64,000 bases of DNA from Pseudomonadales bacterium (lineage in GTDB: Bacteria; Pseudomonadota; Gammaproteobacteria; Pseudomonadales; Azotimanducaceae), in NCBI GenBank assembly GCA_023300545.1, contig JALZVT010000031.1, forward strand, positions 1-64,000, in the 5' to 3' direction. Positions 37,901 through 44,458 of this stretch are shown in pieces (the first letter of the stretch is position 1; every line of letters starts with the position of its first letter). Both the position numbers and the translations under genes were made by a program. A model generated the notes under the pieces. The model ran no database searches, was not told the origin of the DNA, and saw nothing but the letters and a program-made list of their open reading frames with translations.

Positions 37901-38531
37901 GGGTAGCGAGGGCGCAGTGAACCAGTTAATCGCTAACGAACGCCACCTTTGGGAACAGCAGGCGTTGCTGCTTGGGCTCTCGCCTGAAGACACACAACAA
38001 CTCGCAGACAGTGTGGTAAAGCAGCTACAGCAGACCGCCAGTTCGGGATTGGGTCGCTGGTGCGCACTCGAACCCCAGACAGACGCTCAAGCCGAGATTG
38101 GGCTGACGCTCTGGGAAAACGCCGGTCCCTTGGCACTTGTTATCGATCGAATGTTTGTGTTCCAGCGGCCGGGGCATCAGGCCGAGAGATGGATCATCGA
38201 TTACAAAACCGCGACACCAGAGGTCGCGCTTGAGGCAAGCGCTAAGCTCAACTCAAGCGCTTGGCTACAGCAGGAGATCAGCCGTTACGCCACACAACTC
38301 GCACGCTACGCACGAGCCGTGCGGGCCATGCATCCAGATGTGCCCATTCGTACTGCGCTGTATTTCACCGCTACCAACCAGCTCTGGGAAACCGGGTTGA
38401 CGGCACCAACCGATAGTCCATTGCAAACCGCCGCTCAGGCGACCCCTGAGGACTCGATACAACTTGAAAACGACACCATTGCCCAATGCCTCACACTCAC
38501 CGACCTGACCTCGTTAGACGCAGAGGCTTGA
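34932..38531 (+). CDS. AddA-type helicase-nuclease (UvrD superfamily)
   Basis: A 1199-residue SF1A helicase with a C-terminal nuclease. Walker A is QAPAGSGKTT (32-41), Walker B LLIDEFQDTS, motif V TVHKSKGLQYKHVLLP and motif VI RRVLYVAATRAEQTL. The nuclease has VIDRM, WIIDYKTATP and the QxxxY-type QQEISRYATQLARYARAV. The AddB- and AddA-type pair is expected to do end resection for RecA, as RecBCD does; no recBCD is in view. The frame is open back to 34815, but ATG 34932 follows the addB-like stop and precedes the conserved region. Confidence 0.87.
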   Translation: MTKGAPADQRPALADDPERVRAIDPVRSCIVQAPAGSGKTTLLAERFVALLAGVEQPEQILAITFTKKAAAEMRQRVREELADTNSTLGVAAMARSLEKSWGLELYPSRLRIQTIDSFAMSLVKQLPITSQLQQRDICDHPDEYYQRSVARVLQRIAEPGAEDNTTSLLREFGGNTQQVQNLLVTMLRRREQWLFSLADQLSNFDPERLVDAISEGVTALQNEALASLLNNMSLPTRRRLEVFARYASDCLGEKTAFSDLTEFEQWRFIAQNLVLLAAATLEKPQVKSRLTKNNGFPPTKENTHKQDLTELLKEFASDTAHADILQALTAIRDIPQMDAATRDRDRLAMIGTTLFNCVYELNKLFDERGEVDYNQITIAAITALGSNDAPTELALSLDYRISHLLIDEFQDTSRSQHMLFERLITEWTPDDNNTFFAVGDPMQSIYRFRNAEVSLFLEVCNTGIANLQLEHLQLTTNFRSNDTMIGWFNQVFNRVLGDLDDTNLGRISYAPATSPRGDLATLPKTTLFAPMQLSESVAEQHSQLIAHIQELAAEQDTALTDIAILVRNRTPVGPLVRALEAAGIEWQGTDLHALAQTAIVSDLVALANTLFAPTDRISALAVLRSPLVGLNLNDLYAVAQYMGDQAAPQSTSLINLLQGDPEQELTAPLPGMTEQGYASLTRLIQAAQPPISKRLQLAPRELIETIWLQLGGPAAYPPSQLKHAERLLDTIELAHPVHFSPPRLLQDIQKLYAEDDGTGVQILTVHKSKGLQYKHVLLPHLEAGTRSDEAALMLQRASTAGTLLACKAPDRIKDFDKNNKTVYHWLKLEDSQRARNETRRVLYVAATRAEQTLKLFATVPADKKSATSGSLLSCLSDVYGELWQERDIEAAASVTTAARTETEDDSENAEQSIVTIQALPATLPLPDLPAPAVTLPERSRNIAGRRETDEPDLLFALERRAAILRGNLTHQALCTLSQNLSDTTSPTDQGGSEGAVNQLIANERHLWEQQALLLGLSPEDTQQLADSVVKQLQQTASSGLGRWCALEPQTDAQAEIGLTLWENAGPLALVIDRMFVFQRPGHQAERWIIDYKTATPEVALEASAKLNSSAWLQQEISRYATQLARYARAVRAMHPDVPIRTALYFTATNQLWETGLTAPTDSPLQTAAQATPEDSIQLENDTIAQCLTLTDLTSLDAEA

Positions 38532-38562
38532 CGAGCGTTGTCACACTGCTAGTATCGACCCC

Positions 38563-38682
38563 ATGAACGCGCATAGCTTTATTCAATCAGCCGCAAACAG
38601 CACGCCCTGCTCTCCACAGAAAGTAGCGCCCACCTCTGTTGGCAATTGGTTTAGCGGTTACTGGTTCGGCTTTACGAACTAG
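38563..38682 (+). CDS. Aromatic leader peptide, 39 aa (Trp/Phe/Tyr-rich)
   Basis: A 39-codon ORF starting MNAHSFIQSAAN and ending in NWFSGYWFGFTN: two Trp, three Phe and one Tyr within its last twelve codons. It is followed by mutually exclusive hairpins and a Rho-independent terminator, then a DAHP synthase gene. This is the signature of ribosome-mediated attenuation sensing charged aromatic tRNAs. There is no ribosome-binding site before the ATG. A candidate promoter (TTGACG 38528-38533, TAGTAT 38550-38555) would start transcription at about the ATG, so translation may be leaderless. Confidence 0.82.
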   Translation: MNAHSFIQSAANSTPCSPQKVAPTSVGNWFSGYWFGFTN

Positions 38683-38699
38683 GCCGCCTGCACACGCGT

Positions 38700-38758
38700 G
38701 GAGGCACCCTGTTGCCTCCGACCCGAACCCCGGTTGGCAACGTCAAACGGGGTTTTTT
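38700..38758 (+). terminator. Attenuator: competing hairpins and intrinsic terminator
   Basis: GGAGGCA (38700-38706) pairs with TGCCTCC (38713-38719). GTTGCC (38711-38716) can instead pair with GGCAAC (38736-38741), with CCG/CGG extending that stem. AACCCCG (38726-38732) pairs with CGGGGTT (38748-38754), ending in six Ts (38753-38758): the terminator. The middle pairing excludes both others, giving a trp-type protector/antiterminator/terminator switch. The exact ribosome register is not resolved. Confidence 0.78.
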
Positions 38759-38821: not shown

Positions 38822-39937
38822 ATGAGTACCGAACAACCCCAAACCAACTCGACCGAGAACCTCAATATCGAGGCACAGCGCGTCTTGGCATCGCCAGCCA
38901 CGCTGAAAGAAATGTTGCCGGCAACCGATGCCGTCAAACGGACCGTGCATGAGCATCGCAAAGCGGTTCGCGACATCCTCGAAGGCCGCGACCACCGTTT
39001 GCTGGTTGTTGTTGGTCCCTGCTCGATTCACAACGTCGACGAGGCTATGGAGTACGCGGCTAAGCTACGAGTGCTCGCTGATGAGGTGAACGACAACCTG
39101 CTGGTTGTCATGCGCGCCTACTTTGAAAAACCCCGAACCACCGTCGGCTGGAAGGGACTCATCAATGATCCATTCTTAGACGACAGCTTTCGGATCGAAG
39201 CTGGCCTGCAAATGGCGCGCAAACTGCTGCTTGATATCTCGTCTTTGGGCCTTGGGCTCGCCACCGAGGCGTTGGACCCCATCACACCGCAATATCTGCA
39301 CGATCTCATCAGTTGGACCGCCATTGGCGCCCGAACCACCGAGTCGCAAACTCATCGCGAGCTGGCATCTGGGCTGTCTGCTCCCGTCGGCTTTAAAAAT
39401 GGCACCGACGGCGGACTGGAAGTTGCCCTCAATGCGCTGCAGTCAGTGGCGCATCCCCACCGCTTTCTCGGTCTGAATGAAGCTGGCCAGGTTGCAATCA
39501 CCACCACCCGAGGCAACTCAGGCGCGCACATTGTGCTCCGCGGCGGCAGTAAGGGCTCGAATTACCACGCCGAAGCTATTGCTGATTGTGAGACGGCACT
39601 CGCTAGCAACAATCTACCCAACAACATTATGGTCGATTGCTCTCACGCCAACTCGAACAAGGATCATCGCTTGCAATTGAACGTTGGCGAAAGTGTTAGC
39701 GAGCAAATCCTTGCTGGCAATCAGTCGATTACGGGCTTGATGTATGAAAGCAATATGGTGGAAGGGCGACAAAACCACACCGCCGGCGTACCGCCAACCG
39801 CTGGTCTATCGATCACAGACGCGTGCATTTCGTTTGCAGACACCCAAATCGCACTGCGCAAACTGAATAACGAACTGGGTGATGCGCTACAGGCCAGAAA
39901 GCCCGCGAGAGCAAACGCAGTGACTAGGGCTGCCTAA
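38822..39937 (+). CDS. 3-deoxy-7-phosphoheptulonate (DAHP) synthase, class I
   Basis: Joins phosphoenolpyruvate and erythrose 4-phosphate in the first step of the shikimate pathway. The 371-residue product is of the AroF/G/H class: LLVVVGPCSIHN, RAYFEKPRTTVGWKGLINDP, ATEALDPITPQYL, SAPVGFKNGTDG, and VDCSHANSNKDH. I cannot tell which of the three feedback types it is. The ATG at 38822 has AGGA about 10 nt upstream. The Trp/Phe/Tyr-rich leader peptide and attenuator directly upstream imply control by the general supply of aromatic amino acids. Confidence 0.95.
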   Translation: MSTEQPQTNSTENLNIEAQRVLASPATLKEMLPATDAVKRTVHEHRKAVRDILEGRDHRLLVVVGPCSIHNVDEAMEYAAKLRVLADEVNDNLLVVMRAYFEKPRTTVGWKGLINDPFLDDSFRIEAGLQMARKLLLDISSLGLGLATEALDPITPQYLHDLISWTAIGARTTESQTHRELASGLSAPVGFKNGTDGGLEVALNALQSVAHPHRFLGLNEAGQVAITTTRGNSGAHIVLRGGSKGSNYHAEAIADCETALASNNLPNNIMVDCSHANSNKDHRLQLNVGESVSEQILAGNQSITGLMYESNMVEGRQNHTAGVPPTAGLSITDACISFADTQIALRKLNNELGDALQARKPARANAVTRAA

Positions 39938-39956: not shown

Positions 39957-40541
39957 CTAGGAGTAGTAAGCGTTATCCGTCACGGTATGGTCAGTAGAAT
40001 CTTTAATCGACCGAAGCTCGGGCACCTGCTCCAGCAATGCCTTCTCAACACCCTGCTTAAGGGTGATGTCTACGGCCGAGCAACCCTGGCAGCCACCGCC
40101 AAATTCGAGCACCGCGGTGGTGCCCTCATCGACGATTTCGATCAATGACACTATACCGCCATGAGCGGCAAGACCTGGGTTGATCTCGTTGTAGAGGACG
40201 TAATTGATCCGGTCTTCCAGCGGCGAGTCTTCGCCCACGCTGGGCACCCGGGAATTGGGTGCTTTGATGGTGAGCTGGCCACCCATTTTGTCTTCGGCGT
40301 AGTCGACTTTGGCGTCAATCAGATAAGGCTGGCTGCGCTCTTCGAACCAGGCGGTAAAGCCTTCGAATTGAACAGAAACATCCCCGTCCTGCTCCTCACC
40401 AGGTCGACAATACGCAATACAGGTCTCCGCGTTTGGCGTTCCTGGCTGGGCCACAAACACGCGAATAGCAACGCCTTCGTCATCCTGCTTTGACAGCAGA
40501 CCGGCTAGGTAACTCTGGGCAGATTCGGAGATATCAATCAT
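39957..40541 (-). CDS. nfuA: Fe-S biogenesis protein NfuA
   Basis: Scaffold/carrier that delivers 4Fe-4S clusters to client proteins, possibly including RimO and IspG-type enzymes. The 194-residue product has an N-terminal degenerate A-type domain ([16 protein letters not shown]) and a C-terminal Nfu domain with the cluster-binding CxxC in [16 protein letters not shown]. The frame opens eight codons earlier, but MIDISESA at 40541 matches the family N-terminus. It is convergent with the DAHP synthase gene and divergent from metH across a 275-bp region in which I see no gene or recognisable riboswitch. Confidence 0.95.
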
Positions 40542-40816
40542 TCGGGTTACGCGCTCGCGGTGCAAGATTACTAAAGACGGAGATTATACCAGCTCGCGGC
40601 ATGAATCCGGCTCATCATCGCATAGAGGAACCTGTGTTGAGCTTAGAACCGTCTGCTTGGACAATGGTGACGCTGTTTGGTCATGCTGGACCGGCTCTGC
40701 AAAGAGGCTCACCCGGCAATTTTCCTCACACTTGCGCCCAACACCTGCGCTTAACACTTGCTTTAAATCCCAGTGGGGTACGCCCCAGAACTCAGATCAG
40801 CACCGGACTTTGCCCA

Positions 40817-43800
40817 ATGACACTCAAAGATCACCTCGAACAACGCATTTTGGTCCTCGACGGCGCAATGGGCACCATGATTCAGAACCTCGGGCTCAAA
40901 GAGGCAGATTATCGTGACGCTGAGCTTGAAGACCACCCAAGCTCACTGTTTGGCAATAGCGACCTTTTGAATCTCACCCGCCCCGAGGCGATTCAGAGCA
41001 TTCACGAGGCCTTTCTGGCAGCCGGAGCCGACATCGTCTCGACCAACACCTTTACCGCCACAGAAATTGCCCAGGCCGACTATTCCCTTGAGCACAAAGT
41101 GCGCGACATCAATCTGCGCGGAGCTCAGCTCGCCCGCGCCGCGGCTGACAAGTACAGCAGCCCAGAAAAGCCCCGTTTTGTTGCCGGCAGCATTGGGCCC
41201 ACCAACCGCACCGCCAGCCTGTCGCCGCAGGTAAACGATCCTGGCTTTCGCAACGTGTATTTTGACGAGCTCGTAGACAACTACACCGTCGCCGCGTCGT
41301 CGCTGCTCGAAGGTGGCGCTGACCTGTTACTGATCGAAACCGTCTTTGACACACTGAACGCCAAGGCGGCAGTGGTGGGCTGCAAGCGGGCTCAAGAACA
41401 AATGGGCAAAGAAGTTCCTCTCATGATCTCTGGCACCATCACCGACGCCAGTGGCCGCACCCTCTCCGGGCAAACCGTTGATGCGTTCTTCCAGTCAATC
41501 AGCCACGCCGAGCCGTTGCTGGTGGGATTGAACTGTGCGTTAGGTGCCGCCCAGCTACGCCCCTATGTTGCAGCCCTGTCCGGTTTGGCCAACACCTATG
41601 TCAGCGTTCATCCCAATGCGGGTCTGCCTAACGAATTTGGCGGCTACGACGAAACGCCTGAAACCATGGCCGAAGTACTCGACGAGTTTGCGAGTGCCGG
41701 TTTTCTGAACCTGGTTGGTGGTTGCTGTGGCACACAACCCCCACATATCGCAGCGATCGCTGAGGTTGCCGGTAAGCACAAGCCCCGCGTCATACCGCAG
41801 CCCAAGCAACGTCTCAGCCTGTCTGGACTAGAACCCCTCTACGTTGATAGCGACTCGCTGTTTGTGAACATCGGCGAGCGTACCAACGTCACCGGCTCTG
41901 CCAAATTTGCTCGGCTGATTCGCGAGGAGCAGTTTGCCGAAGCGCTTGAAGTCGCAAATCAGCAAGTGGCCAACGGCGCTCAGATCATCGACATCAACAT
42001 GGACGAAGGCATGCTCGACAGCGAGGCCGCCATGGAGAAGTTTCTGCATTTGATCGCCTCAGAGCCCGACATTGCACGTGTGCCGATTATGATCGACTCG
42101 AGCAAATGGGAAATCATCGAGGCTGGCCTCAAGTGTGTGCAAGGCAAAGCCGTGGTCAACAGCATCAGTCTGAAAGAAGGCGAGGCCGAGTTTATCGAGC
42201 GCGCTACGCTATGCCGTGAGTATGGTGCCGCGGTTATTGTCATGGCGTTCGATGAAGACGGCCAGGCTGACACCTACCAACGCAAAATCGACATCTGTGA
42301 ACGCTCTTATCGAGTATTGGTAGACGTTGTCGGCTTCAATCCGCACGACATTATTTTTGACCCCAACATCTTTGCCATCGCAACCGGCATCGAAGAGCAC
42401 AACAACTACGCAGTCGACTTTATCGAAGCGACTCGGTGGATTCGCGCAAATCTTCCAGGCGCTGGTATTTCCGGCGGCGTTAGTAATGTGTCGTTCTCGT
42501 TTCGAGGCAACAACGGCGTTCGCGAAGCGATTCACGCGGTCTTTCTTTATCACGCCATTCAAGCTGGGCTTACGATGGGTATCGTAAACGCGGGACAGCT
42601 CGCCATTTACGAAGATATCCCTAAAGAGCTACGCGATGTGGTTGAAGACGTTGTATTGAATCGCAGCGATGACGCCACCGAACGCTTGCTCGACCTCGCA
42701 GACAAATACTCCGCTAGCGGCGCTAAGGCTGTTGCACAGGATGATAGCTGGCGTGAACTGCCCGTTACCGAACGCCTATCGTTTGCGCTGGTAAAAGGCA
42801 TCAATAAATTCATTGTTGAGGACACCGAAGAAGCTCGCCTGCAGGCGGACCGACCAATATCCGTAATTGAAGGCCCGCTAATGGACGGCATGAACGTTGT
42901 GGGTGATCTGTTTGGCGCGGGCAAGATGTTTCTGCCCCAGGTAGTAAAGAGTGCCCGCGTTATGAAACAGGCGGTTGCCCATCTCGTACCCTTTATCGAA
43001 GACGAAAAAGGCGAAGGCGCCAAGGCCAAAGGTAAGATCGTCATGGCAACGGTCAAGGGCGACGTGCACGACATCGGTAAAAACATCGTGGGCGTTGTTT
43101 TGCAATGCAACAACTACGACATTGTTGACCTGGGCGTTATGGTGCCCGCCGAGAAAATTCTTGAAACGGCAATCGCTGAAAATGCGGACATGATTGGTTT
43201 GTCTGGCCTGATCACCCCCTCGCTCGACGAGATGGTTCACGTAGCAAGCGAAATGGAGCGCACCGGCCTCAACCTGCCGTTGCTAATTGGCGGCGCAACA
43301 ACGTCCAAAGCGCACACGGCGCTCAAAATTGAACCCGCGTTTCCTTCCGGTTCGGTCACCTATGTTACTGACGCATCGCGTGGTGTGAGCACAGCGTCGA
43401 GCCTGCTTTCAGACGAGCTGAAAGACAACTACATGGCCGAAACTCGCGCTGACTACGCCGCCGTACGCGAACGCATCTCCAACCGAAAGTCGGTACAGCT
43501 GCTGCCGTACAAAGACGCAAAGAAAGAAGCGGCAAGCATTAGCGACTGGGCGGCGCCTGTGCCTAATTCGCTGGGTGTCACCGCGTTCGACAACATTGAC
43601 CTGAAAGAACTGGTGCCTTACATCGACTGGACGCCGTTTTTCATGACGTGGGAACTGGCGGGAAAATATCCGCGCATTCTGACCGACGAAGTGGTCGGTG
43701 AAGCGGCAACATCGCTGTTTGCAGATGCCACTGAAATGCTCGACAAGATTGTCAGCGAAGGCTGGCTACGTGCTTCAGCTCGCGTGGGTCTATGGCCTGC

Positions 43801-44458
43801 TAACCGATCGGGCACCGATGACATCGTGCTGTACACAGATGAGAGTCGCGAGACCGAGCTGTGTCAGCTGCAGCATCTGCGCCAACAAGCCAAGAAAGGC
43901 GCAGCCGGACCACACTACTGTCTGGCTGACTTTGTCGCTCCCCCAACAAACGCTGACTACATTGGCGGCTTTGCAGTGACGGCAGGCCTCGGGATCGATG
44001 AAGCACTAAAACAATTCGAAAATGACGACTATCAGGAGATTTTGCTGAAGTCGCTGGCTGATCGTCTGGCCGAAGCGGCTGCAGAATATCTGCACCACAA
44101 GGTGCGAGTGGATACCTGGGGGTACGCCCATGACGAGGCGCTCGATAACGAATCAATGATCCGTGAACGCTATCAAGGCATCCGGCCGGCACCGGGTTAC
44201 CCCGCCTGTCCTGACCATACGGAAAAAACCAAACTGTTCGAACTGCTCGATGCGCCAGCAACCGGCATGGAGCTCACTGAATCATTTGCGATGTTGCCCG
44301 CTGCAGCCGTTTCAGGCTGGTATTTTGCTCACCCAGACTCACGTTACTTCGGAGTGGGCAAAGTCGGCAAAGATCAGGTCGCGGATTACGCGGAGAGAAA
44401 AGGTTGGACGCTGGATGTTGCAGAGCGCTGGCTGCGGCCGAACCTAGCTGAGGTGTAA
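40817..44458 (+). CDS. metH: Cobalamin-dependent methionine synthase
   Basis: Transfers methyl from 5-methyl-THF through cobalamin to homocysteine. The 1213-residue product has all four modules. The homocysteine domain (about 1-330) has zinc Cys in LVGLNCALG and [10 protein letters not shown]. The pterin domain spans about 345-620 ([11 protein letters not shown]). The B12 domain (about 640-880) has the cobalt-ligand motif DVHDIGKN. The AdoMet reactivation domain fills the rest ([12 protein letters not shown]). ATG 40817 gives the canonical start; the upstream open frame to 40490 is non-conserved. It ends 7 bp before a palindromic repeat. Confidence 0.97.

Follow-up and report, generated by a model that had tools for sequence, protein, structure and literature searches.

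A probable transcription attenuator with a mixed Trp/Tyr/Phe leader peptide preceding DAHP synthase in a family of uncultured Pseudomonadales

The region 5′ to a class I DAHP synthase gene in a Pseudomonadales bacterium very probably acts as a ribosome-mediated transcription attenuator, in which the level of DAHP synthase is set by the speed of decoding over a leader peptide with mixed Trp, Tyr and Phe codons. The same anatomy lies 5′ to about 95 DAHP synthase genes in an uncultured family of the Pseudomonadales. From this anatomy, its conservation, the covariation and mutual exclusivity of its helices and the placement of its codons we infer where the ribosome would stand, that tRNA charging would provide the signal and what the regulatory outcome would be. 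The shikimate pathway begins with DAHP synthase, whose control is generally treated as a matter of TyrR, TrpR and allostery. In this large uncultured family a single leader on the gene would read all three aromatic tRNAs through a switch that is supported by covariation, and the same RNA extends to threonyl-tRNA synthetase.

Anatomy of the leader

We use the term window for the whole stretch of 64 000 nucleotides that was analysed. Segment A comprises the 12 nt past the leader stop codon, B and C are the arms of the next hairpin, and D is the strand located in the terminator loop. The features of the window are:

38528..38555, + strand: predicted sigma-70-type promoter, TTGACG-16-TAGTAT (promoter scan)
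38563..38682, + strand: leader peptide ORF of 39 codons, MNAHSFIQSAANSTPCSPQKVAPTSVGNWFSGYWFGFTN followed by the stop codon (ORF translation; aromatic block kept in 73 non-redundant relatives)
38654..38687, + strand: helix Z:A, the codons SGYWF with those of TN, the stop codon and the first 5 nt beyond it; pause or protector hairpin in the window leader (MFE folding; 4.6 expected pairs in the ribosome-free state)
38686..38705, + strand: helix A:B, 38686-38693 with 38698-38705, directly after the stop codon (folding, swap test, covariation)
38699..38720, + strand: helix B:C, GGAGGCA/TGCCTCC (38699-38706 with 38713-38720), anti-antiterminator (folding, swap test, covariation)
38710..38742, + strand: helix C:D, TGTTGCC with GGCAACG (core GTTGCC/GGCAAC, about 38711-38716 with 38736-38741), antiterminator (folding, swap test, covariation)
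38725..38758, + strand: intrinsic terminator, AACCCCG/CGGGGTT (38725-38732 with 38748-38755), then six T (38753-38758) (folding, covariation)
38822..39937, + strand: class I DAHP synthase (3-deoxy-7-phosphoheptulonate synthase, AroFGH type), the regulated gene of the model (TIGR00034 476 bits, NF009395 510 bits)

A preliminary description of this DNA, made from the sequence, had reported a 39-codon ORF ending NWFSGYWFGFTN, the pairings GGAGGCA/TGCCTCC, GTTGCC/GGCAAC and AACCCCG/CGGGGTT with six Ts, and the ATG of a class I DAHP synthase (38822) 64 bp 3′ of the T run ending at 38758. All of these were recovered where it had placed them, and the identity of the gene was confirmed by the TIGR00034 match. 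The C-terminal end of the leader peptide, also written as VGNWFSGYWFGFTN, carries the regulatory codons W, F, Y, W, F and F at positions -11, -10, -7, -6, -5 and -3. Two elements were missing from that description: helix A:B, located past the stop codon and ahead of the first hairpin, and a promoter that puts the leader ATG at or next to +1.

The GGAGGCA/TGCCTCC and GTTGCC/GGCAAC pairings have one strand in common, while C:D and the terminator are mutually exclusive because D sits inside the terminator loop. Three general features of the attenuator class are present: the leader is separated from the structural gene by an intrinsic terminator, an antiterminator is exclusive with that terminator and, across 73 non-redundant leaders, there is a short ORF rich in codons for the end products of the pathway. 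The terminator was not picked up by a consensus scan of the window, since its loop is too long. Folding of the single sequence is modestly stronger than that of shuffled sequences (z -2.5 for the leader, z -1.8 for the part past the stop codon), so that the case rests on comparison.

In the window the -10 box ends 7 nt 5′ of the leader ATG, and the promoter scan found one promoter where 0.1 were expected. In the relatives an in-frame ATG follows the -10 hexamer at a spacing of 6-10 nt that peaks sharply at 7. A Shine-Dalgarno-like sequence precedes just 6 of 138 in-frame ATGs. This spacing and the scarcity of Shine-Dalgarno-like sequence indicate that the leader mRNAs are probably leaderless.

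Inspection by eye of translations places the end of an exonuclease/helicase (AddA-like) gene at 38531, just 5′ of the leader promoter. On the 3′ side of DAHP synthase there is a convergent NfuA-like gene (39957-40565, - strand), and past this a divergent MetH-like methionine synthase (40490-44458, + strand).

The genome containing the window (4.78 Mb) encodes two class I DAHP synthases, of which only the copy in the window carries the leader; the region upstream of the paralogue was examined and lacks it. A simple scan of trpE and pheA of the same genome found no comparable leader. The suggestion that the gene is governed by tRNA charging rather than by TrpR or TyrR was tested in part. TrpR is absent from the genome under a search that was positive on the E. 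coli control. The HTH domain used as a marker of TyrR gave only sub-threshold matches in this genome, and the presence of TyrR is unlikely.

Conservation of the leader and its codons

How widely is this leader distributed? The pattern is present upstream of DAHP synthase in most genomes of the family; the last dozen codons of the ORF are crowded with W, F and Y, and its stop codon lies 65-84 nt 5′ of the T-tract. Of the 207 family genomes, 156 contain a match at E up to 0.01 to an RNA model built on the region past the stop codon. These E-values are partly circular, since the model was trained on the same set and aromatic or Thr content had a part in the choice of the leader frame. The window itself belongs to the training set, and its own E-value, being circular, was excluded as evidence. 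The tests of helices A:B and C:D described below are free of the circularity of homologue collection. When 132 matches were fetched and classified, 97 lay before DAHP synthase and 23 before threonyl-tRNA synthetase with Thr-rich leaders, leaving 12 unclassified; in six of the last group the downstream protein reads as ThrS. At least three aromatic codons are found in 95 of the 97 leaders that precede DAHP synthase. Some genomes of the family lack the element, and so does the majority of orthologous DAHP synthases from the rest of the order. The named Pseudomonas, Halomonas and Cellvibrio-type loci of the orthologous gene are also without it, and served as natural negatives.

Among 73 non-redundant leaders the last 16 codons contain a mean of 5.53 aromatic codons, an approximately 6-fold enrichment over the stretch before them, where there are 0.96 per 16. 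W, F and Y are all present in 60 of the 73, and, with positions up to -2 counted, the last aromatic codon occupies -3 or -4 in 61. There is an order within the block, with W around -10, Y around -7 to -5 and F around -5 to -3.

Within the block the three residues exchange freely at each position; at -4, for example, the 73 leaders have 42 F, 18 Y and 5 W. This free exchange of aromatic identity points to the reading of codons and not to a fixed arrest peptide. A nascent-peptide arrest of the TnaC kind, in which a free amino acid or a drug would cause the aromatic C-terminus itself to stall the ribosome, would agree with a short C-terminal motif close to the stop codon. Yet composition alone is conserved, with W, F and Y interchanging at every position, and the same RNA scaffold serves runs of Thr before thrS; we regard such an arrest as highly improbable.

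Two further observations were made among the model matches. One genome has two DAHP synthase loci (G165:C15:8342-8412 and G165:C22:90723-90793) whose leaders and match scores look identical, reflecting either a recent duplication or an assembly artefact. A strong match of 53 bits (L222, G145:C29:98835-98915) precedes a small gene and has no clear aromatic or threonine leader; it may mark a further regulated target or be a terminator matched by chance.

Alternative helices and their covariation

The pairing of each leader's own strands was compared with that of strands taken from other leaders, in a swap test that requires no alignment. All four helices stand out (B:C z -13.8, C:D z -9.9, A:B z -9.5, terminator z -7.0), against control pairings that are null (A:C -1.9, A:D +1.1, B:D +0.3). 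Helix A:B has 6.63 expected pairs compared with 3.51 in controls where A was shuffled (n = 70, Wilcoxon p 1e-12). For covariation the alignment was fitted to B:C and the terminator only, leaving A:B and C:D unfitted. For A:B and C:D together, double changes are seen in 99 cells, where shuffles gave 48.7 and slid registers no more than 39; the covariation controls ignore phylogeny, so these are counts and not probabilities, although sliding and swapping do preserve relatedness. Double changes occur at 8 of the 10 A:B pairs. B:C and the terminator covary too, the latter being paired in 97.9% of cells over 53 sequences.

The protector helix Z:A is of a different standing. The hairpin itself is present in the window, but as a feature of the family it is not supported, there being no excess over codon-shuffled controls (6.44 vs 6.26 pairs, p 0.14; swap test z -2.0).

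These data also bear on whether the element is conditional at all. The related Pseudomonas element discussed below is filed in Rfam as a small RNA, P15, and a short terminated transcript would be expected here, as it would from a small-RNA gene or a constitutive terminator. Three alternative pairings that covary, a cognate leader peptide and a constant position before DAHP synthase or thrS argue strongly against that interpretation, to which we give very little credence. Searches for a riboswitch, a T-box or a known Rfam leader returned nothing at threshold, and chance-level matches only at E up to 10.

Folding of the family was followed as a function of what a ribosome would cover. In truncated transcripts that end just 5′ of the 3′ arm of the terminator nearly all leaders fold into A:B plus C:D, and hiding the first 10 nt shifts them to B:C plus the terminator. 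A scan of the hidden length places the switch from C:D to B:C, on the family average, at about 6 nt past the stop codon. With A hidden, equilibrium folding still favours C:D in 25 of 65 leaders, so that the attenuator model requires B:C to form first during transcription. Ribosome-free RNA is predicted to be antiterminated in 48 of the 65.

Three-state folding of the window gives A:B 6.3, C:D 6.2 and B:C 1.2 pairs in the stalled state, and B:C 7.0 and C:D 3.2 pairs with the ribosome at the stop codon. In the ribosome-free state there are 4.6 pairs of Z:A, 6.5 of B:C and 2.0 of C:D, from which untranslated window RNA should terminate.

Proposed mechanism

In the mechanism that we propose, RNA polymerase would start at or beside the leader ATG, and a 70S ribosome would translate the leaderless mRNA. 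Poor charging of any one of the three aromatic tRNAs would make the ribosome stall on the W/Y/F block. The front edge of a stalled ribosome lies at about +12 to +14, counted from the A-site codon. It would stop short of A, allowing A:B and then C:D to form, whereupon the terminator would be blocked and transcription would read through into the gene. A ribosome that reaches the stop codon would hide about 10 nt of A, so that B:C would form, D would be left free, the terminator would fold and the transcript would end near 38758. If the window leader were not translated, the extra hairpin Z:A should also lead to termination. The switch at about 6 nt past the stop codon fits the position of the last aromatic codon at -3 or -4, which is approximately the closest stall that leaves A uncovered. 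Attenuation by charged tRNA-Trp, tRNA-Phe and tRNA-Tyr, as originally put forward, is the reading best supported by the mixed codons, the terminator and the covarying alternative helices over about 95 genomes.

The preliminary description further held that the pairings exclude one another in the trp pattern. The exclusivity of B:C, C:D and the terminator stands, but the first conserved switching helix lies past the stop codon and has no overlap with the aromatic codons. In a plain four-segment attenuator of the trp type, B:C, C:D and the terminator would correspond to 1:2, 2:3 and 3:4, with a ribosome stalled at W, F or Y masking B, and these three helices do exist and are mutually exclusive. 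B, however, starts about 16 nt past the stop codon and at least 25 nt past the last aromatic codon, beyond the reach of the stalled ribosome. Without A:B a stall would keep B:C and lead to termination, which is the wrong sign, and A:B is strongly conserved. Regulatory codons are not contained in a segment 1 that pairs with segment 2. The trp arrangement is thus improbable. What is found is a ladder of A:B, B:C, C:D and the terminator in which an extra helix alternates with those on both sides, so that the switch resembles a his-like ladder and not the plain trp four-segment design.

A broader generalization can be put forward tentatively, and we would judge it somewhat more likely to be wrong than right. 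The element may be a modular scaffold on leaderless peptides, gated at the stop codon, whose sensor is changed through the codons alone (W/Y/F for DAHP synthase, Thr for thrS) and whose default state in much of the family is ON. That part of the family would have no protector hairpin overlapping the codons, and untranslated leaders would then read through. Only a ribosome arriving at the stop codon would turn expression off, a default opposite to that of E. coli trp, and the DAHP synthase leader would act as an OR gate responding to shortage of any of the three aminoacyl-tRNAs.

Related leaders before thrS and in other Pseudomonadales

The same attenuator scaffold with a Thr-rich leader is found before thrS (TIGR00418) at one locus of the window genome (L153, G000:C63:44806-44883) and in about 29 relatives. 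The peptides end, for example, TTRTTTSTC or TATATTTTTRGGAA before the stop codon, and these leaders have the same arrangement of -10 box and ATG. A literature search, to which subscription papers were mostly inaccessible, found no report of a leader-peptide attenuator for thrS. A third model match in the window genome, C120:1347, was rejected as a leader since it is a bidirectional terminator.

Mixed-aromatic leaders also precede class I DAHP synthases outside the family, in other Pseudomonadales (YFFYGYWFSQRRA and GYSVGYWYWFRNGHA, each followed by the stop codon, and YWYFGYGYFSQEP...). At nine loci from other families of the order (L297-L299, L301, L302 and L305-L308) the aromatic codons are further from the stop codon, and there is a similar core of B:C, C:D and terminator.

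At three loci of one such family there are matches to the Rfam family P15 (RF00627) of 96-105 bits (L315 1449-1569, L316 1449-1568 and L318 1449-1569). Since P15 is assigned to Pseudomonas in Rfam, we presume this family (f21) to be that genus. The matched stretch is in each case precisely the end of a mixed-aromatic leader (YFFYGYWFSQRRA and its stop codon) together with the terminator before a DAHP synthase paralogue. P15 thus probably serves as the leader of a DAHP synthase attenuator rather than as a small RNA in its own right; an sRNA of obscure role would thereby acquire a probable function. A search of the literature, again mostly outside subscription papers, found none linking P15, PA1750 or PA2843 to a leader peptide. 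The window does not belong to P15, scoring 12.2 bits against a gathering threshold of 70, and the two differ in helix arrangement and stop-codon geometry.

Comparison with known systems

None of the Rfam attenuator families (Trp_leader and its relatives) matched the window, even at E 10. The E. coli trp and pheA attenuators each sense a single amino acid, and their segment 1 overlaps the codons. The window element is like them in its leader peptide of cognate codons and in the opposition of antiterminator and terminator.

The his attenuator of E. coli and Salmonella is a ladder of alternating helices. Our element resembles it as a multi-helix alternating ladder, with an extra hairpin between leader and terminator; the extra his hairpin and its part in low basal read-through have been discussed (PMC1183508). 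The two differ in amino acid and gene, in the D strand located inside the terminator loop of the window, and in that the first helix conserved in our family lies wholly past the stop codon.

The preliminary description considered a mixed-aromatic leader on DAHP synthase to be much less familiar than trpL or pheL, but it is not unprecedented. In C. glutamicum aroF is preceded by the aroR leader attenuator (Neshat et al. 2014), with Phe-Tyr-Phe, at which transcription responded to Phe and not to Tyr (PMC11802643, PMC4046766). Codon content thus need not match the response in vivo. The likeness is that of an aromatic leader peptide attenuating DAHP synthase; aroR is actinobacterial, and its Phe-Tyr-Phe lacks Trp, unlike the window leader. 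For ilvB of C. glutamicum, the title of Morbach et al. 2000, as cited in PMC4046766, refers to leader peptide formation without a ribosome binding site. In Acholeplasma the uORFC-13-1 motif upstream of aroF, known from 24 examples, places a uORF of Phe codons next to a terminator (PMC8632094). It shares the uORF and terminator before DAHP synthase, but belongs to another phylum, has Phe only and is a different RNA. Structured leaders have also been predicted for aroF and aroH of Shewanella (PMC2659441).

The general kind of element is known. What is new is the combination of three aromatic amino acids on one leader, a ladder gated at the stop codon, a leaderless start and the reuse of the scaffold before thrS.
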